Source: Adlercreutzia faecimuris (lineage in GTDB: Bacteria > Actinomycetota > Coriobacteriia > Coriobacteriales > Eggerthellaceae). Taken from it: a stretch of 64,000 nt of DNA. Below the pieces are notes generated by a model. It was given only the letters and a program-made list of their open reading frames with translations, was not told the DNA's origin and ran no database searches. Positions 44,401-53,394 of the stretch are shown here, in pieces (position 1 is the first letter of the stretch; each line of letters starts with the position of its first letter). Made by a program: the position numbers and the translations under genes. Where the stretch lies: positions 186,001-250,000 of the forward strand of contig NZ_JAJMLW010000002.1 in NCBI RefSeq assembly GCF_022669055.1. The letters run 5' to 3'.

Positions 44401-46990
44401 CCCCGACAACCCGACGGGCAAGACCCAGGTCATTCGCAAGACGGTCACCGTCAATTACCGCGACTTCCACCAGGAGGGCGTCGCGCTCGACGACTTCTTC
44501 CCCCTGGAGCTCACGTCCACCTCGTCGGTGAAGCCGACCTACGCCGTGTCCAACGCGGCCGTGGCCACGCTCATGCCCGCTGTGGAGGGCACGCCCGCCT
44601 ACGGGCCGGGCGGCAGCCCCGCCCTGGACGACAAGGGGCGCCTGAAGGTGCAGGTGAACAGCTGCGGCACCTCGGTCATCACCGTGGAGCAGAAGCCCAA
44701 CGCGCTCTACACGGGCCTCAAGTACATCCTGACGGTCAACGTCAAGCCCGACCCCACCATCAAACCCCAGGTGCAGATCCGCATGACATGGCGCAACCTC
44801 ACGGCCATCCGCGAGGCGTCGCCCGCCCCGGCCGTGGCCACCTTCGCGCGAGTGCTCGCGGCGGCCGACGCGGCCAACGCCGGCGTGGGCATGAGCTCGC
44901 GGATGGCGCGGGCCGTGGCCGACCGCACCCACACCCCGCCGCGCCCCGGCGACGTGCTCGAGTACACGGTGACGGGCCTCAACCTCACGCCCGGGTCGGC
45001 CTGGCAGGCCGCCGAGCTCAGAGACGCCATCGACAAGAAGCTCACGTTCGACGAGGACGAGGTGGAGCTGGCTCCCAACTACGCCACCCACAGCGACCAG
45101 ACCCAGCTCGGCTCCGACGCCTTCTACGCCGGCTTCAACTGGGACGGCCTCGACTGGGCCCCGGTGAGCCGCGGCACGGGCGATGGCGACTATCAGTTCG
45201 ACGACGCGTCGGCCACGCTCTCCAAGGCCATCGGCACCGTCTACGGCGGCCAGTCGACCTCGGTGCGCTTCCAGGCCGTGGTGGGCGAGGACGAGGGGCT
45301 GGGCGACCGCCCGGCCGGTGGCAAGCTGCCCGAGATCGTCAACAAGCCCGAGGGCACGGGCGACTACGGCAAGCCCGAGGGCACGCTGAAGCCCGGCGAG
45401 CCGGTTCCCGACCCCAAGCCGCTCGACCCCGGCACCGACATCGTCTACGTCGGCGACGACGACCCCGTGCCCGGCAAGCCCGCCACGCCCGACCCCATCC
45501 CCGTGCTGCCGAAAGACCCGGCCGAGCCCGACATCGTCACCACGGTGGACGTGGCGCAGAAGGGCCACGTCGAGGAGCATGACGACGACCGCATCCTGGT
45601 GGGCGACACGCTGGGCGTCACCGTCACCTCGAAGAACCAGGGCGCCGACTCGTGCCTGACCAACGCCGTGGTGAAGGTCACGCTGCCCCAGGGCTTCGAG
45701 CCCAAGGAGGGCACGATCAAGCTCAAGGACGGCGCAGGGAATACCTACGACGTGCCGATGAGCGCCTACGACCCGAAGACCGGCATCATCGCCGTGAACG
45801 CGGGCGACCTCTACGGCGGCGAGGACGCCGTGCTCACCTTCGACGTGGAGGTGACCTCGGTCTACGACCCGGACGACCCGTCGGATCCGAATGATCCCGA
45901 CGGCCCCGGCAACCCGGGTAACCCCGGCGACCCGTCGGATCCCGGCAACCCCGGCGGCCCCGACGATCCGGACGCGCCCGGCCCCGAGCGGCCGACCTCC
46001 CCGGTCATCGAGGGCGGCACGCTCGGCGAGACGCCCACCGACGAGTGGGAGCGCGAGCACCCGACCGACCCCGACGCCGAGCCGGCCGATCCGGACGACA
46101 AGCCCAAGCCCGGCACGCCCTTCGAGCCCGGCAGGCCCTGGGAGGACCTGGAGGAGGAGTTCGTCACCCCCGACCCGGTCAAGCCCGTCATGCCGCCGGT
46201 GCTGCCGGCCAGCCCCAAGCTGGAGGACGATAAGGACGGCAAGGCCGACGTGACGGTGGCCAAGGACGCCCAGAACCTGAGCAGCGCGGACGGCACCACG
46301 CACGTGGGCGACGTCGTCCGCTACACCATCACGGTCACCAACGCGAAGGCGAACACCATCTGGTACGACGTGGTCATCCGCGACGACGTGCCCATGGGGC
46401 TGGAGCCGCTCAAGGACTCGATCAAGCTCACCAGCCGCGACGGCGCGGCGCACGACGTGCCCGACGGCGCCTACGACGTGGAGACGCGGCGCCTGGCCGT
46501 GACGGCCGGCGACCTGCGCGGCCCGGGCGCGGTCACGCTCGTGTTCGACGCGCTCGTCACCGAGGAGGCCGCCGGCGCCGACATCGGCAACGTGGCCGAG
46601 GCGTTCGGCACGCTGCCCTCCGGCGTCGACGCGGGGGCCGTGGGCGAGGGCGTGTCGCGCCCGACCGGCGGCGAGCCCTTCGAGCCCGAGGACGGCTGGA
46701 AGCAGTTCGAGCGCGACCACGCGGGCCTGGCCAACCCCGACGCGTCCTACCCCGCGGGGGTCGACGCCAAGGGCGGCGTGATCGCCGAGCCGCGGCCGGA
46801 GGACCCGGCGGGCGACGGGACGGGCACGAAGGCGCCCATCCGCCTGGCCCAGACGGGCGACGAGCTCGTGGCCCCGTCGGTGGCCCTCGTCATGGCCGCC
46901 GCGGCGGCGGGCGTCATGCTCATGGCGGCCGCGGCCCAGCACCGACGCCGGCGCGAGGCGCTGGTGAGCCGCCACCGCAGCCAGTGGTAA
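41465..46990 (+). CDS. Giant LAQTG-anchored surface protein 1, probably phase-variable
   Basis: A 1841-residue secreted protein (ATG 41465 after AGGAGA). It has a signal peptide (about 1-33, CALAVMLACGLMIP core), an N-terminal beta-helix-like region with repeated GGG.SAGIGSG / NGG..... motifs resembling carbohydrate-binding surface domains (about 50-540), and an MBG-like segment (YDGLPFDPLK, about 660). Three DUF11-like beta-sandwich modules follow (about 1150-1300, 1355-1470, 1590-1720), separated by Pro/Asp/Gly linkers. It ends in the sorting signal LAQTG (1794-1798), a TM helix and an Arg-rich tail. Nine C residues after the signal peptide make on/off switching likely. It is probably an adhesin; the ligand is unknown. 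The N-terminal third looks less GC-rich than neighbouring genes. Confidence 0.88.
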   Translation: MRKTHPVLRCALAVMLACGLMIPTVALTAFADVENSLTPPLAVTDVAAAPDDGADAAAAAAASKARAANAGGFTVEGGTQATGPTPGTGDWFFDTTKGTLLILSSTPLTVSTSGQTTNNIEVYPGVKADLTLAGVNINSPLAPINLVTNSREDKSGVKATNGDQIVNKTMLYLTIAENTTNTLVCSDAGTTGSPGIRCGWGSVLVIDDAITNVRQGGSKFNLDDIVTPENGMVPYDVTLIDGKTTLSKGDPLLGMDAEGCVLNVIGGGHSAGIGSGPNENAGTLVFNGGDITARCLPFGTNYAISNGAGIGGGSNGSGTVMIFNGGTVDAYGGSCGAGIGSGLGYHTKDHLAGVTKGDAIDIPTGAGAEARSGGYSFKAAPQDVDWFCCKTSYMTCPGRVHFLISATAENYFTVAGDITVNGGLINVTSGAHGNALGQSCAHGPSSNRNHVIRVTGGTVKTTVKGADPGGFTPGPDRPPVASLGAAFGYTIVTGGSIQLATDEGTGKPAFQGIGDTAFNTQGIATWDDVEAYKTAHDGNGLPDNDKVFMLTVNLKDSDEKLTNEKITKFDLYIGGNKQNYGAPAQFTEGKLYLWLPEWAADPKAPQEVRIEMAVLKGGVSTPIDPLFITKPDANNPDQTAKRWIEFTFPADYQKYLTKDYDGLPFDPLKVGPDNVIEVNREQGGVPIKETLKNGADVTFKYQMLKQDEEGEWVPDGLESAEGATSLPADAGRFSVTMISYEYAKLDNYKASYWGHQAKGTAVINRVPAVLEIEGVEWGHLDVDKPEGASDAWTPIVADQEAGGVAGNRLKLTFNVRSANTTALTCAAPTGEFQVRIDGVDVGDPIKLTADAVTASKHSTFEQKDIEVKSKTGGTETRHATVVTYYLDPANRDGLLELLEQAGDGGEHKVSIEYIADRNYVQGVDKNPDNASEDDAFIVPVPPKGDVGSDDPDKVQVEDTPTVPGGSDPSDPSDPDKPVDPDNPTGKTQVIRKTVTVNYRDFHQEGVALDDFFPLELTSTSSVKPTYAVSNAAVATLMPAVEGTPAYGPGGSPALDDKGRLKVQVNSCGTSVITVEQKPNALYTGLKYILTVNVKPDPTIKPQVQIRMTWRNLTAIREASPAPAVATFARVLAAADAANAGVGMSSRMARAVADRTHTPPRPGDVLEYTVTGLNLTPGSAWQAAELRDAIDKKLTFDEDEVELAPNYATHSDQTQLGSDAFYAGFNWDGLDWAPVSRGTGDGDYQFDDASATLSKAIGTVYGGQSTSVRFQAVVGEDEGLGDRPAGGKLPEIVNKPEGTGDYGKPEGTLKPGEPVPDPKPLDPGTDIVYVGDDDPVPGKPATPDPIPVLPKDPAEPDIVTTVDVAQKGHVEEHDDDRILVGDTLGVTVTSKNQGADSCLTNAVVKVTLPQGFEPKEGTIKLKDGAGNTYDVPMSAYDPKTGIIAVNAGDLYGGEDAVLTFDVEVTSVYDPDDPSDPNDPDGPGNPGNPGDPSDPGNPGGPDDPDAPGPERPTSPVIEGGTLGETPTDEWEREHPTDPDAEPADPDDKPKPGTPFEPGRPWEDLEEEFVTPDPVKPVMPPVLPASPKLEDDKDGKADVTVAKDAQNLSSADGTTHVGDVVRYTITVTNAKANTIWYDVVIRDDVPMGLEPLKDSIKLTSRDGAAHDVPDGAYDVETRRLAVTAGDLRGPGAVTLVFDALVTEEAAGADIGNVAEAFGTLPSGVDAGAVGEGVSRPTGGEPFEPEDGWKQFERDHAGLANPDASYPAGVDAKGGVIAEPRPEDPAGDGTGTKAPIRLAQTGDELVAPSVALVMAAAAAGVMLMAAAAQHRRRREALVSRHRSQW
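41577..41585 (+). repeat. C9 homopolymer in surface protein gene 1
   Basis: Nine consecutive C encode the end of Thr, two Pro and the first base of Leu (codons 38-41). Loss of one C leads to TAG at 41601-41603; gain of one C leads to TGA at 41596-41598. The tract sits in the same protein context (TPPL) in the paralogue at 48239. Confidence 0.95.
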
Positions 46991-47043: not shown

Positions 47044-47049
47044 TACAAT
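47044..47049 (+). promoter_or_regulatory. -10 element of dapB
   Basis: TACAAT, 34 bp before the dapB ATG and just after the preceding terminator; AAGGAGGA provides the ribosome site. Confidence 0.5.
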
Positions 47050-47083
47050 GGGGCGATACGCTGACGATCGAAGGAGGACGCAG

Positions 47084-47851
47084 ATGATCAAGGTTGCCGT
47101 TGCCGGGTGCGCGGGGCGCATGGGGAGCGCGGTGGTGGACGCCGTCACCGCCGCCGATGACATGGAGGTGGCCTGCGGCATCGACCCGCACGGCGCCGAG
47201 GCGGGCTTCCCGGTCTACGCGAGCGTGGCCGAGGCCGTCGCGGCCGGCGGCTTCGACGTGCTGGTCGACTTCACCCAGCCCGACGTGGTGGCTGGCAACC
47301 TCGCCGCCGCGCTGCCGGCCGGCGTCGACTGCGTGGTGGGCACGACGGGGCTTGCCAACGACGTGCTCGAGGCCCTGGCCGCCCAGGCGGCGCCCGGCAC
47401 GTGCCTGTTCTACGCGCCCAACTTCACCACCGGCGCCGTGCTGATGATGGAGTTCGCCCGCGCCGCCGCGCCCTACTTCCCCGAGGCCGAGGTCATCGAG
47501 TTCCACCACTGCAACAAGAAGGACGCCCCGTCGGGCACGGCCGTGCGCACCGCCCAGATGATCGCCGAGGCCCGCGCCCCGCGCGTGAGCGCCGCCCCCG
47601 GCCGCGAGACCGAGGTGCCCGGCGCCGGGGGCGCGCGCGGCGCGCTCGTCGACGGCGTGCCGGTGCACGCGGTGCGGTCCATGGGCTACGTGGCCTCGCA
47701 GGAGGTCATCTTCGGCTCGCTCGGCCAGACGCTCACCCTGCGCCACGACTCGTGGGACCGCAGCTCCTACATGCCCGGCGTCCTGCTGGGCATCCGCAGC
47801 GTCGGCGCCCGCGAGGGCCTCATCGTGGGCCTCGAGCAGTTCATGGACTAG
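47084..47851 (+). CDS. dapB: 4-hydroxy-tetrahydrodipicolinate reductase
   Basis: A 255-residue NAD(P)H-dependent reductase of lysine/diaminopimelate synthesis. It has the dinucleotide-binding loop AVAGCAGRMGSAV (about 5-17), DFTQPD, GTTGL, and the catalytic/substrate segment EFHHCNKKDAPSGTA (about 142-156; His and Lys). It lies between the two surface protein genes, with dapA beyond the second, so the dap genes have been split by the paralogue pair. Confidence 0.95.
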   Translation: MIKVAVAGCAGRMGSAVVDAVTAADDMEVACGIDPHGAEAGFPVYASVAEAVAAGGFDVLVDFTQPDVVAGNLAAALPAGVDCVVGTTGLANDVLEALAAQAAPGTCLFYAPNFTTGAVLMMEFARAAAPYFPEAEVIEFHHCNKKDAPSGTAVRTAQMIAEARAPRVSAAPGRETEVPGAGGARGALVDGVPVHAVRSMGYVASQEVIFGSLGQTLTLRHDSWDRSSYMPGVLLGIRSVGAREGLIVGLEQFMD

Positions 47852-48003: not shown

Positions 48004-48045
48004 TATAATCTCATCTCATATACGTTTCGGTAACGGGAGCGTTAC
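48004..48045 (+). promoter_or_regulatory. Promoter and leader inverted repeat of surface protein gene 2
   Basis: TATAAT (48004-48009) is a perfect -10. The perfect inverted repeat GTAACG-GGAG-CGTTAC (48030-48045) follows 20 bp downstream, inside the expected 5' leader. The same element, partly degraded, is upstream of surface protein gene 1. Confidence 0.65.
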
Positions 48046-48108: not shown

Positions 48109-51100
48109 ATGAGGAAGACGCACCACGAGAGGCGCCCGCGCCGGGCATTCCGCTGCGCGCTAGCCGCCGTCCTCGCCTGCGGGCTGATGATCCCCGCCGC
48201 GGGGATCGCGGCCTTCGCGGACGCGGAGGAATCGCCTACCCCCCCCCTTGCTCCTAAGATAGAGCCCGCGGCCGAAGCCGCCGCGGCCCCGGCGCCGCGC
48301 GACGGCGGGTTCACGCCCATCCCGAGCAGCGACTTCGAGATCCGCGGGGGCAAGGCGGCCACGGCCGTCGACGCGAAGGACGGCGACTGGTTCTTCGACG
48401 GCACCGTCCTCCACATCCTCACCAGCACCCCGCTCGCCGTGCGCACCACACCCCAGCCGGTCGCCGGCAAGGAGGGCGAGTTCACCCCCAAGCAGACGGC
48501 CCAGAGCATCCGCATCGAACCGGGGGTCAAGGCCGACCTCACCCTGGCGGGCGTGACCATCGCCTCCACGGTGGCTCCCATAGACATCATCACCAACAAA
48601 TGGGACACGGCCGATAAGAGCGCCGCCGTCACGCCGGCGGACATCCTGCATAAGACGATGCTTCACCTCACGTTGGCCGACGGCAGCGTCAACACCCTCA
48701 CCTGCACCACCACCGGCGTCGGCTCGAAGGGCTCGCCCGCGCTGCGCTGCGGCTACGGGTCGGTGCTCGTCATCGACGATGAGGTGCGCAACCTCGATGC
48801 GTCCAACAACATCGTGACCCCCGTCAACGGCGTGGTGCCCTACGACGTGACGCTCGCGACGGGCCAGAGCCTGCAGGCGGGCGATCCGCTCTCCCGCATG
48901 GACTCCGCCAATCCCGGAACCCTCAAAGCCACGCACGGCGGTCATTCCGCCTGCATCGGCGGCGGTCCCAAGGAGGATTCCGGCACCATCATCATCAACG
49001 GCGGCATCGTCTACGCCAACGGCAACACGGGGAACTCCGATTGCAACACCGGTGCGGGCATCGGCGGCGGCGACGGCGGATCGGGCACGGTGATCACCAT
49101 CAACGGCGGCGTCATCGACGCCCAGGCGCCCTACCATGGGGCGGGCATCGGCGCCGGCTGGAGCTGGAAGAACCCGGGGAATCTGGCCCATGACGATGCG
49201 CTCACCATTCCCAACGCGCCGCAGAACAACGGGTACAACCAGTACGGCGGGGGAGATCCCTCCGACTGCTACCTCAACGTCGGCGGCGACATCACCATCA
49301 ACGGCGGCTTCGTCAAGGCCAAGGCCGGCGGCCATGGAAATGCGTTCGGCCAGGCCTGCGGCGGCACCCCCAGCTCGAACCGCAACCACATCATGCGCGT
49401 CACCGGCGGCACGCTGCTGCCCACGGGCATGGTCGACCGCTTCGACATCGGCGGCAACTACGGCTACCTCATCATCACCGGCGGCTCGGTGAACTGCAAC
49501 GTGTGGGATCAGAACCGCACGGTCAACACCTACCCGTCCACTAACGTCTACAAGGGTGACTACAAGTTTCAGGGCATCGGCGGCACGGCCTTCAACACCC
49601 CCGGCATCACCGAGTGGAGCCAGATCCAGACCCTCGAGGGCGGCGCGCTGCCCGAGAAGGACAAGGTGAAGCTCGTCACCATCGACCTGTCCCCCGATAT
49701 CGTGGGCGCCGACAAGAACTGCAAGATCGAGGACTGGGAGCTCTACGTCAACAGCGAGAAGCGCACCTACGGCGCCCCCTCCTACCTGGACAACGGCAAG
49801 CTGTACCTGTGGCTGTCCAGCGAGGACGCCGTCAAGCCCGTGGCGGTGGAGCTCAAGTACCGCGACGAGAAGGGCGAGGTGGTGGAGCTCGAGACCATCG
49901 AGACCCTCGGCGACGGCGGCTCGGCCGCCAAGCGCTGGGTGAAGTTCGACCTGGACGAGAAGAACTTCCCCGGCGGCCTGACCAAGCACTACGACGGGCT
50001 GCCCCTGGCCAAGTGGTCGGTGGAGAAGACCCCCATCGAGGTGACGAGCAAGACGGGCATCACCCGCAAGCTGGACAAGGACTTCGACGATGCGGGCAAC
50101 CCCTACGTTACCTTCGCCTACCAGCTGTACAAGGACGACGGCACGCTCGGCCCCATGTCGGAGGAGGCCACCGAGATGCCGGCCGACGCGGGCCGCATGC
50201 ACTTCACCATGCACTCGACCCAGTTCGCCAAGGACAAGGACCTCTCCGTCACCTACTGGGGACATGAGACCTCGGGCGACTGCGTCATCACCGAGGCCAA
50301 GGCCGTCGTCAACCTGTCCTCGTCGTCCTGGGTGCGGCTGAACGAGGCCGACGGGTCCCACGTCGACGTCAATGAGGGCGACGAGCTGCCCGGCACGCAC
50401 CTGCGCCTGGTCTTCGACATCCAGAGCGCCTCGTCGGAGGCGCTCACCTGCCGCCAGCCCACCGGCCACTTCCAGGTGCTGGTGGACGGCGAGCCCGTGG
50501 GCGAGCAGATCGCGCTCGACGACGAGGCGGTGAAGAAGGCCTCGGGCACGCAGCACTCCACCGTGAGCACCCTGGAGGGCCCGGTCGACGCCGACGACAA
50601 GACCAAGAAGAACCGCTGGGCCACCCAGGTGACCTACTTCCTGGATCCGACGCTGCTCGACGGCGAACTCGACGCCGCCGACGGCAAGCTCGACCACGAG
50701 GTGACCGTCCAGTACGTCCCCGACAAGAACTACGTGGAGAGCGTGGAGAACAACCCCTCCAACGCGGCCACCGCGCCCACCACCATCATTCCCGTCAAGC
50801 CCAAGGAGGAGGTCACCGCCGGCGGCACGAAGCTGGACTTCAAGGAGGACCGCGCCTCGCTCAAGCTGCCCTACAGCCAGTTCAACACCGAGGGCGGCGC
50901 GGCCAGCGACTTCTTCAACCTGAGCTTCGACTCCACCTCGGCGGCGAAGGTGAGCTATGTGAGCTCCAACCCCGCCGTGGCCGACATCGAGCGCGACGAG
51001 GACGGCAACCCGGTCTTCGACGAGGACGGCAACGTCAAGGTGCAGGTGTTCTCCTGCGGCAACGCCGTCATCACGATGACCCAGGGCGCCAACGCCTTCT

Positions 51101-53394
51101 ACAGCGGGCAGCGGCGCATCCTCGACCTCACCATCACCCCCGATCCCACCATCAGGCCCCAGGTGCAGATCCGCCTCACCCAGCGCAACCTGACCGCGCT
51201 CGCCGAGGCGCAGGGCGCGCTCCTCTCGGTGACCCCGTTCGCCCTGGCCGCCGCCGACGCGCTCGGCGTGGAGCCCTACGCCGCCCGTGCCGCGGTCGAC
51301 CGCGCCAGCATGCCGCCGCGCCCCGGCGACTTGATGGAGTACACGGTGACGGGCCTCAACCTGACCCAGGGGTCGGCCTGGCAGGCCGCCGAGCTCAGAG
51401 ACGCCATCGACCAGCGCCTCACCTTCGACGCCGAGAGCGTGGAGACGGCCGCCAACTACGAGACGCCCGACTCCGACCCGCTGCTGGGCACGCCCGCCTT
51501 CTACCAGGGCTTCGAGTGGGACAAGCTGGACTGGGCCCCGGTTGACCGCGGCACCGGCGACGACGAGTACCGGTTCGACGACGCCTCGGCCACGCTGTCC
51601 AAGCTGATCGGCACCGTCTACGGCGGGCAGTCGACCTCGGTGCGCTTCCAGGCCCGGGTGGGGGAGAACCAGGGGCTCGGCGAGCGCCCCGGCGACGACG
51701 GCAAGCTGCCCGAGCTGAAGAACGAGCCCGAGGGATCGGGCGGCTTCGGCAAGGACGAGAAGGACCTCGCGCCGGGCGAGAAGCCCGTGCCTCCCGAGAC
51801 ACTCGACCCCGACGTCGACATCGTCGTCGTGGGCGATGACGACCCCGACCCGTCCACGCCGAACGTGCCCTCCTCGCCCAAGCCCACCCCCGTGCTGCCG
51901 AAGGACCCGGCGGCGGCCGACATCGTCACCACGGTGACAGTGGAGCAGACCGGTCATCGCGAGGAGCACGACGACGACCGCATCCTGGTGGGCGACACCC
52001 TGACCGTGACGGTGACCTCCACCAACAAGGGCCCCGACTCCAAGCTCGTCGACGCCGTGGTGAGGGCCACGCTGCCGGTGGGCATGGAGCCCAAGGACGG
52101 CACGATCAGGCTCACGGCCGGCGGCAGGACCTACGACGTGCCGATGAGCGCCTACGACCCGAAGACCGGCGTCATCGCCGTGAACGCGGGCGACCTGTAC
52201 TTCGGGGAGAGCGCCGTGCTCACCTTCGACGTGGAGGTAGTGTCGACCTCCGAGACGCGCCTGCCGGAGGATCCCGACGGCCCCGGCAAGCCCGGCGATC
52301 CCGACGACCCGTCCGACCCCAGCGACCCGTCCGATCCCGGCAAGCCCGACCCGACGCGGCCGGAGGGCCCCGCCATCGAGGGCGGCGCGCTCGGCGGCAC
52401 GCCCACCGACGAGTGGGGGCGCGAGCACCCGACAGACCCCGACGCCGAGCCGGCCGACCCCGCCGACAAGCCTAAGCCGGGCACGCCCTTCGAGCCCGGC
52501 GGGCCCTGGGAGGACCTCGAGGACGACTACGTGGCGACCCTGCCGGCGACCGACCCCGGCATGCCGCCGGTGCTGCCGGCCGACCCCAAGCTGGAGGACG
52601 ACGAGGAGGGCCCGGCCGACGTCAGGCTGGCGAAGGTCGCGCGCAACCTCGACCGCGACGACGGCACGACCCGCGTCGGCGACGTGGTGCGCTACACGGT
52701 GACGCTGTCCAACGCCCGGCCCCACACCATGTGGTACGGCGCCGTCATCCGCGACGTGGTGCCCGTCGGCGTCGAGCCGCTCTCCGAGTCCATCCGCGTG
52801 ACCGGCCCCGACGGCGCGGAGCATGCGGTTTTGGACGACGCCTACGACCCGGGCACGCGCGTGCTCGCCGTCGCCGTGGGCGATCTGGTGGGCGGCCGGT
52901 CCGCCACGCTCGTGTTCGACGCGCTGGTGACCGAGGAGGCCCTCGGCGCCGACGTGGGCAACGTGGCCGCCGCCTTCGGCACGCGGCCCTCCGAGGCCGA
53001 GCCGGGCGAGGTGGCCGGCGGCGCGCCGCGGCCGGTGCCCGGCACGCCGTTCGCGCCCGAGGGCGGCTGGGACGAGTTCCTGGAGGGCCGGCCCGGCGTC
53101 GACAACGCCCAGGCGCCCGCCTACGCCCCGGGCACGGACGGCGAGGGCGGCGTGAGGCCCGCCGAGCAGCCGGGCGGCGGCGACGGCGCGGCCGGCCCCG
53201 GCGCGGGGGCCGGGGACGGCGGCAAGGGCTCGCGCACGCCCATCCGCCTGGCCCAGACCGGCGACGAGCTCGTCGCCCCGTCGGTGGCCCTCGTCCTGGC
53301 CGCCGCAGCCGCCGGCGTCATGCTCATGGCGGCCGCCGCCCAGCGCCGCAGCCGGCGCGAGGCCCTGGCCCGGCGCCACGCCGGCCGCTGGTAG
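48109..53394 (+). CDS. Giant LAQTG-anchored surface protein 2, probably phase-variable
   Basis: A 1761-residue paralogue of surface protein 1 with the same plan. It has a signal peptide (about 1-41), a repeated GGHSACIGGG / GAGIGGGDGGSGT beta-helix-like region (about 75-500), and an MBG-like segment (HYDGLPLAKW, about 625). Three DUF11-like modules follow (about 1070-1220, 1275-1385, 1500-1630) with Pro/Asp/Gly linkers, then LAQTG (1714-1718), a TM helix and an Arg-rich tail. The C-terminal half is far more similar to protein 1 than the N-terminal half, so the two may present different binding domains on the same stalk. It carries the same C9 tract. Confidence 0.88.
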   Translation: MRKTHHERRPRRAFRCALAAVLACGLMIPAAGIAAFADAEESPTPPLAPKIEPAAEAAAAPAPRDGGFTPIPSSDFEIRGGKAATAVDAKDGDWFFDGTVLHILTSTPLAVRTTPQPVAGKEGEFTPKQTAQSIRIEPGVKADLTLAGVTIASTVAPIDIITNKWDTADKSAAVTPADILHKTMLHLTLADGSVNTLTCTTTGVGSKGSPALRCGYGSVLVIDDEVRNLDASNNIVTPVNGVVPYDVTLATGQSLQAGDPLSRMDSANPGTLKATHGGHSACIGGGPKEDSGTIIINGGIVYANGNTGNSDCNTGAGIGGGDGGSGTVITINGGVIDAQAPYHGAGIGAGWSWKNPGNLAHDDALTIPNAPQNNGYNQYGGGDPSDCYLNVGGDITINGGFVKAKAGGHGNAFGQACGGTPSSNRNHIMRVTGGTLLPTGMVDRFDIGGNYGYLIITGGSVNCNVWDQNRTVNTYPSTNVYKGDYKFQGIGGTAFNTPGITEWSQIQTLEGGALPEKDKVKLVTIDLSPDIVGADKNCKIEDWELYVNSEKRTYGAPSYLDNGKLYLWLSSEDAVKPVAVELKYRDEKGEVVELETIETLGDGGSAAKRWVKFDLDEKNFPGGLTKHYDGLPLAKWSVEKTPIEVTSKTGITRKLDKDFDDAGNPYVTFAYQLYKDDGTLGPMSEEATEMPADAGRMHFTMHSTQFAKDKDLSVTYWGHETSGDCVITEAKAVVNLSSSSWVRLNEADGSHVDVNEGDELPGTHLRLVFDIQSASSEALTCRQPTGHFQVLVDGEPVGEQIALDDEAVKKASGTQHSTVSTLEGPVDADDKTKKNRWATQVTYFLDPTLLDGELDAADGKLDHEVTVQYVPDKNYVESVENNPSNAATAPTTIIPVKPKEEVTAGGTKLDFKEDRASLKLPYSQFNTEGGAASDFFNLSFDSTSAAKVSYVSSNPAVADIERDEDGNPVFDEDGNVKVQVFSCGNAVITMTQGANAFYSGQRRILDLTITPDPTIRPQVQIRLTQRNLTALAEAQGALLSVTPFALAAADALGVEPYAARAAVDRASMPPRPGDLMEYTVTGLNLTQGSAWQAAELRDAIDQRLTFDAESVETAANYETPDSDPLLGTPAFYQGFEWDKLDWAPVDRGTGDDEYRFDDASATLSKLIGTVYGGQSTSVRFQARVGENQGLGERPGDDGKLPELKNEPEGSGGFGKDEKDLAPGEKPVPPETLDPDVDIVVVGDDDPDPSTPNVPSSPKPTPVLPKDPAAADIVTTVTVEQTGHREEHDDDRILVGDTLTVTVTSTNKGPDSKLVDAVVRATLPVGMEPKDGTIRLTAGGRTYDVPMSAYDPKTGVIAVNAGDLYFGESAVLTFDVEVVSTSETRLPEDPDGPGKPGDPDDPSDPSDPSDPGKPDPTRPEGPAIEGGALGGTPTDEWGREHPTDPDAEPADPADKPKPGTPFEPGGPWEDLEDDYVATLPATDPGMPPVLPADPKLEDDEEGPADVRLAKVARNLDRDDGTTRVGDVVRYTVTLSNARPHTMWYGAVIRDVVPVGVEPLSESIRVTGPDGAEHAVLDDAYDPGTRVLAVAVGDLVGGRSATLVFDALVTEEALGADVGNVAAAFGTRPSEAEPGEVAGGAPRPVPGTPFAPEGGWDEFLEGRPGVDNAQAPAYAPGTDGEGGVRPAEQPGGGDGAAGPGAGAGDGGKGSRTPIRLAQTGDELVAPSVALVLAAAAAGVMLMAAAAQRRSRREALARRHAGRW
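48239..48247 (+). repeat. C9 homopolymer in surface protein gene 2
   Basis: Nine consecutive C in the codons for TPPL (codons 44-47). Loss of one C leads to TAG at 48260-48262; gain of one C leads to TAA at 48255-48257. Length and protein context are the same as in surface protein gene 1. Confidence 0.95.

Follow-up and report, generated by a model that had tools for sequence, protein, structure and literature searches.

Two neighbouring genes for giant surface proteins in Adlercreutzia faecimuris each carry a run of nine cytosines just behind their signal-peptide codons, and the question is whether these runs stand there by chance or as switches that turn the proteins on and off by the gain or loss of a single base. 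Both genes lie in the 64-kb stretch of DNA that was analysed (hereafter the window) and their features are collected in Table 1. The two proteins share 48% identity along their length and the same architecture: a Sec-type signal peptide at the N-terminus, a conserved N-terminal domain, DUF11 repeats and, at the C-terminus, LAQTGDE followed by a hydrophobic stretch and a basic tail, which together form a sortase-type sorting signal. The start of protein 1 is likely the ATG at 41465 rather than the TTG of the mechanically called ORF. TIGR04226, the model of the fimbrial isopeptide domain, scores 53.9 in protein 1 (cut-off 30) and 28.8, slightly under the cut-off, in protein 2. Adhesin-like proteins anchored in the wall are the most likely reading of both. 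The N-terminal domain is predicted to be beta-rich, with a solenoid-like arrangement suggested (mean pLDDT 72); a Foldseek search with the predicted domain returned no PDB match at E < 0.1, and no function is therefore read from the fold. The genome holds three sortase matches, the nearest on the same contig about 190 kb from the surface genes, and none of them is a dedicated sortase adjoining the tract-bearing genes.

Table 1. Features of the two surface-protein genes and their surroundings (positions in the window).
Feature	Position	Strand	Remarks
Giant surface protein 1 (MRKTH start)	41465..46990	+	isopeptide-fimbrial-type and DUF11 domains; LAQTG motif
C9 tract of paralogue 1	41577..41585	+	same site, TPPL context; ON at C9
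dapB-like gene between the two paralogues	47048..47851	+	named from its own sequence; also precedes the corresponding G003 gene
TATAAT, candidate -10-like element 5' of gene 2	48004..48009	+	found by eye
Giant surface protein 2	48109..53394	+	1761 aa; Sec-type signal peptide, C9 linker, conserved beta-rich N-terminal domain, DUF11 domains, C-terminal LAQTG
Signal peptide coding region, gene 2 (MRKTHHERRPRRAFRCALAAVLACGLMIPAAGIAAFADA)	48109..48225	+	hydrophobic core and AFADA cleavage-like site, read directly
C9 slippage tract, gene 2	48239..48247	+	between signal peptide and mature domain; ON at C9
TAA	48255..48257	+	reached by a +1-base slip; 3 codons past the tract
TAG	48260..48262	+	reached by a -1-base slip; 5 codons past the tract

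In gene 2 the run is read as ACC CCC CCC CTT (TPPL) in the frame of the long ORF. Direct reading of the sequence agrees with the original prediction in the position and frame of this tract, in the contexts SPTPPLAP and SLTPPLAV that surround the two runs and in the stop codons, since the loss of one C in gene 2 leads to the TAG and the gain of one to the TAA of Table 1. The shifted frames of paralogue 1 end after 4 and 6 codons, those of gene 2 after 3 and 5, so that all four one-base slips terminate within about six codons, as had been foreseen. Stops in both shifted frames within 6 codons are found at 0.3% of the codon positions of 17 window genes. These two tracts are also the only C or G runs of at least 8 in the whole window, where C8 start positions number 4 against about 11 expected from dinucleotide-preserving shuffles; long C runs are thus depleted in the window and the two survivors lie at homologous places. 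Both genes are in frame (ON) in the present assembly.

Homologues were sought in a set of 138 Eggerthellaceae genomes, the present one included. The query was an alignment of the domain that follows the tract, which makes the search independent of the tract itself. It recovered 61 homologues, spread over 13 genomes and 4 genera, with up to 12 per genome. Among them is a third paralogue of the present genome (G000:C1:1155111), which has its C9 at the equivalent site and reads ON. At least 45 of the 61 have a run of 9–10 C or G upstream of the domain (44 measured and one cut by a contig end), in line with the conservation that the original prediction called for. Its expectation of frameshifted versions in other genomes is likewise borne out: the 44 measured loci comprise 16 ON, 26 OFF (out of frame) and 2 unassigned, and the OFF copies include members of same-gene pairs that differ by one tract base. 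Two kinds of observation had been named as speaking against it, and of these the tractless homologue does occur (14 of 61, including one within the genus, in G002, and six in G134); the other, shifted frames open in most orthologues, does not, both shifted frames being closed within 9 codons at 42 of the 44 tract loci, although these loci share ancestry and do not represent 42 independent events. The corresponding control values are 4.6% for the domain codons of the same genes, 7.5% for the linkers of tractless homologues and 0.7% for window-gene codons.

The same stop-flanked layout accompanies several tract types, namely C tracts after the signal peptide, G tracts further downstream and G tracts inside the signal peptide, and no C or G run of at least 8 was found in the matched domain DNA of the family (44.9 kb). 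The commonest spacing between start codon and tract onset is 112 nt, seen in 23 of the 43 runs measured. Only lengths of 9 or 10 were seen, which is less spread than at many contingency loci. The starts of three loci (G003:C14, G001:C290 and G000:C1) were set by hand, and one of the two loci left without a state, G003:C95, has its G9 inside the signal peptide and looks OFF by eye. At G003:C163 a homologue stands behind dapB, as gene 2 does, with C9 in the TPPL context, ON and with both stops kept; at G001:C134 the contig begins inside the tract, in frame. In two further loci (G004:C1:2938592 and G006:C14:6369; L136 and L130) the stretch between the signal-peptide side and the domain, where the tract would be expected, is occupied by N gaps. 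A DNA pattern combining signal peptide and C9, tried on eight genomes, gave nearly as many control matches as real ones and was not used.

The behaviour of the tract is best seen in pairs of related genomes that hold the same gene with near-identical flanks. Between G007 and G012 one such pair has G10 and is OFF in the first genome (G007:C1) and has G9 and is ON in the second (G012:C9), and two others show C10 against C9 (G007:C62/G012:C68 and G007:C8/G012:C67). A fourth pair consists of C10 OFF in G003:C14 and C9 ON in G001:C290, while C6 in G007:C7 and C9 in G012:C11, three bases apart, are both ON. The compared genomes belong mostly to different species, several are draft metagenome bins, and the pairs do not include the window gene. 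Tract length therefore differs between related genomes inside a 5' coding region, behind a signal peptide, and the change in length leads to an early stop, with ON and OFF alleles both present.

It might be argued that the OFF copies are pseudogenes in ordinary decay, or homopolymer errors of sequencing and assembly, the more so as several genomes were binned from short-read metagenomes, N gaps interrupt two loci and one contig starts within the tract. The OFF genes are, however, intact and constrained: their frames remain open for 668 to more than 1,900 codons, and dN/dS between OFF copies is 0.12, 0.35 and 0.42 in the three pairs with enough changes, a fourth pair (0.80) being near-identical, with too few changes to show constraint. 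Values for distant paralogues (0.7–1.0) were set aside as near saturation or limited by the alignment. OFF copies also occur in an isolate, Adlercreutzia mucosicola DSM 19490 (G006, 314360 bp contig), and errors would neither put stops in both frames nor preserve a tract in tens of diverged genes. Decay or error is accordingly a highly improbable account of the OFF copies; genes that are out of frame and yet under purifying selection are most simply explained as genes that would be expressed part of the time.

Selected translational phase variation by slippage is thus a strongly supported reading of the tract, and we give a probability of about 0.9 to the C9 tract being a contingency locus, that is, a slipped-strand on/off switch of the surface protein. 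Slipped-strand mispairing during replication would add or remove one C; with the tract just past the signal-peptide codons and stops in both other frames, translation would then yield a peptide of about 50 residues. A one-base change would in this way turn the 1761-aa LAQTG-anchored protein OFF, presumably with its loss from the cell, and the reverse slip within the same clone should turn it ON again. Each family copy would switch on its own, giving many combinations of surface proteins in a population. The independent switching of the two window genes assumed in the original prediction is retained here, but the four surface states that it derived from them are too few, as the genome has at least three switch copies. 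Such variation plausibly alters adhesion or evades phage or host antibody, which may be its selective advantage.

One subfamily departs from this picture of alternating states. Copies of the MREK type, with signal peptides like MREKRRGSLLRLGLAAALACGM...TETPP, are OFF in all 20 readable cases, at C9 or C10; their loci are found in G006, G007, G012, G004 and G001. Nearly all of them would need C8 or C11 to be ON, and neither allele is present among the 44 measured loci. This is more skewed than free switching would give, although kinship makes the skew less striking than 20 independent draws. The ON state of these copies may be rare or costly, the copies may serve as recombination donors, or they may be read through low-level +1 frameshifting.

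The last two possibilities can be extended to rival explanations. CCC-C is a +1-prone proline site, and the poly-C could be a site of programmed frameshifting or transcription slippage from which out-of-frame copies still make some full-length protein. The MREK-type copies fit such recoding in that all are out of frame, most at C9 and in need of a +1 shift, that their downstream frames are constrained and that tract length is usually exactly 9. On the other hand, the same tract is in frame elsewhere (12 C9 ON copies), C10 copies would have to shift the other way, G tracts play the same part (G003:C95, G012:C9/G007:C1, G079:C15 and G133:C1), both shifted frames carry stops, and same-gene pairs differ by one tract base. 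Recoding as a replacement for the DNA switch appears very unlikely, while a low level of leaky read-through may be superimposed on it. As for recombination, the MREK-type copies could be silent donors for expressed copies rather than genes switched in place, which would account for 20 of 20 being OFF; their signal peptides are 80% identical (protein) and their domains 42% on average, as expected if conversion homogenised the 5' ends. A silent donor, however, has no need of the start codon, the signal peptide and the flanking stops that these copies keep, and donors leave the ON TPPL copies of the window unexplained. The donor model appears unlikely.

The rest of the genome was listed for C or G runs of at least 9 by pattern search. 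Most of the others appear, by codon scoring, to be intergenic or outside a coding frame, and it is thus not the tract alone that is special but its place. Two genes for LoaP-like antiterminators (NCBIfam NF033641, E 2e-24 and 9e-26, below the cut-off of the model; start codons inferred) carry tracts in a common N-terminal context: G9 in frame in one (L061:3036-3044, G000:C3:517735) and G10 out of frame in the other (L062:3055-3064, G000:C4:104254), behind which lie a second NusG-like gene and an apparent sugar transferase gene. In relatives within the genus LoaP-like genes are ON at G9 and OFF at G10, for instance with nearly the same flanks in G001:C318 (G9) and G003:C20 (G10). These genes are possible phase-variable regulators of capsule or EPS. 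A molybdopterin oxidoreductase gene with a Tat signal carries an out-of-frame G9 in its signal-peptide codons (L055:3043-3051, G000:C3:189142; L185); in a relative with 94% identity the run is G11 and likewise out of frame, and tractless paralogues have ordinary Tat signals. This could possibly be a phase-variable respiratory or xenobiotic reductase. Additionally, on the minus strand there is an in-frame C9 a few codons into a large secreted protein, where it precedes the signal peptide's hydrophobic core (L051, 3008-3016, G000:C2:314385), and an in-frame G9 deep in a giant surface-type protein, with stops near in both other frames (L028, 9029-9037, G000:C1:208463). Two more tracts lie a few tens of bases 5' of a gene and are possible promoter or leader switches: G10 before a response-regulator-like gene (L031:2953-2962) and G11 before a transporter-like gene (L042:2977-2987). 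We consider it somewhat better than an even chance that Eggerthellaceae hold genome-wide G/C-tract switches acting on surface proteins, on LoaP-like antiterminators of capsule-type loci (G9 ON, G10 OFF) and on a Tat-exported molybdoenzyme (G9 and G11 OFF), by which the cells of a single clone would come to differ in their surface, in their capsule and in respiratory or xenobiotic metabolism.

Phase variation through homopolymers is old and well known and has been described in other Actinomycetota (PMC9187656; PMC11287997; PMC4746626). The closest parallel comes from the same phylum, in the pilus genes bbr_0113 and bbr_1889 of Bifidobacterium breve UCC2003, where replication slippage at a G-tract switch was shown experimentally; there too the homopolymer lies between a signal-peptide ORF and a sortase-anchored main ORF and a short product results when it is out of frame (PMC9187656). 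The B. breve tracts are poly-G and lie in the first pilin gene of each of two clusters that have dedicated sortases, whereas those of Eggerthellaceae are mostly poly-C, in stand-alone giant genes that number up to 12 in a genome, with stops in both frames; in the present genome the nearest sortase match on the same contig is about 190 kb away. As summarised in a published account, Neisseria opa genes are also a multigene surface family with a 5' coding repeat in each copy and independent ON/OFF states (PMC11287997), but the repeat is a pentamer and the proteins are unrelated, in contrast to the mononucleotide tract and the one subfamily that is OFF in all readable copies in Eggerthellaceae. 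Gardnerella and Cutibacterium acnes likewise have G/C tracts of variable length in or before surface genes, in other protein families than those of Eggerthellaceae, and the sections of the two papers available describe no conserved stop-flanked signal-peptide cassette for them (PMC11287997; PMC4746626). In the P. acnes survey, tract variation was found to follow clades, which suggests slow accumulation (PMC4746626). Within Eggerthellaceae, surface phase variation is represented by Eggerthella lenta, in which a megabase-scale inversion between 16-bp repeats shifts the position of capsule clusters with respect to loaP and to a LuxR-like regulator; that paper nowhere uses the word homopolymer (PMC13174815). 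In the literature searched, mostly outside subscription journals and hence weak evidence, this inversion-based capsule switching was the only kind found and no homopolymer switch in the family was encountered. What is new here is the large stop-flanked family with its always-OFF subfamily, together with G tracts of a similar kind in a Tat-signal molybdoenzyme and in LoaP-like antiterminators.

Drugs and dietary compounds are transformed by Eggerthellaceae, a family common in the gut, and a large set of homopolymer switches would add a second, independent source of cell-to-cell variation beside the DNA inversions reported for their surface. Such variation could be measured in culture and from metagenome reads and would have a bearing on how the cells adhere, are recognised by the immune system and are open to phage. 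Should the molybdoenzyme switch prove real, a metabolic trait of a strain could flip by one base, and an apparently broken gene in a sequenced genome may be merely switched off.
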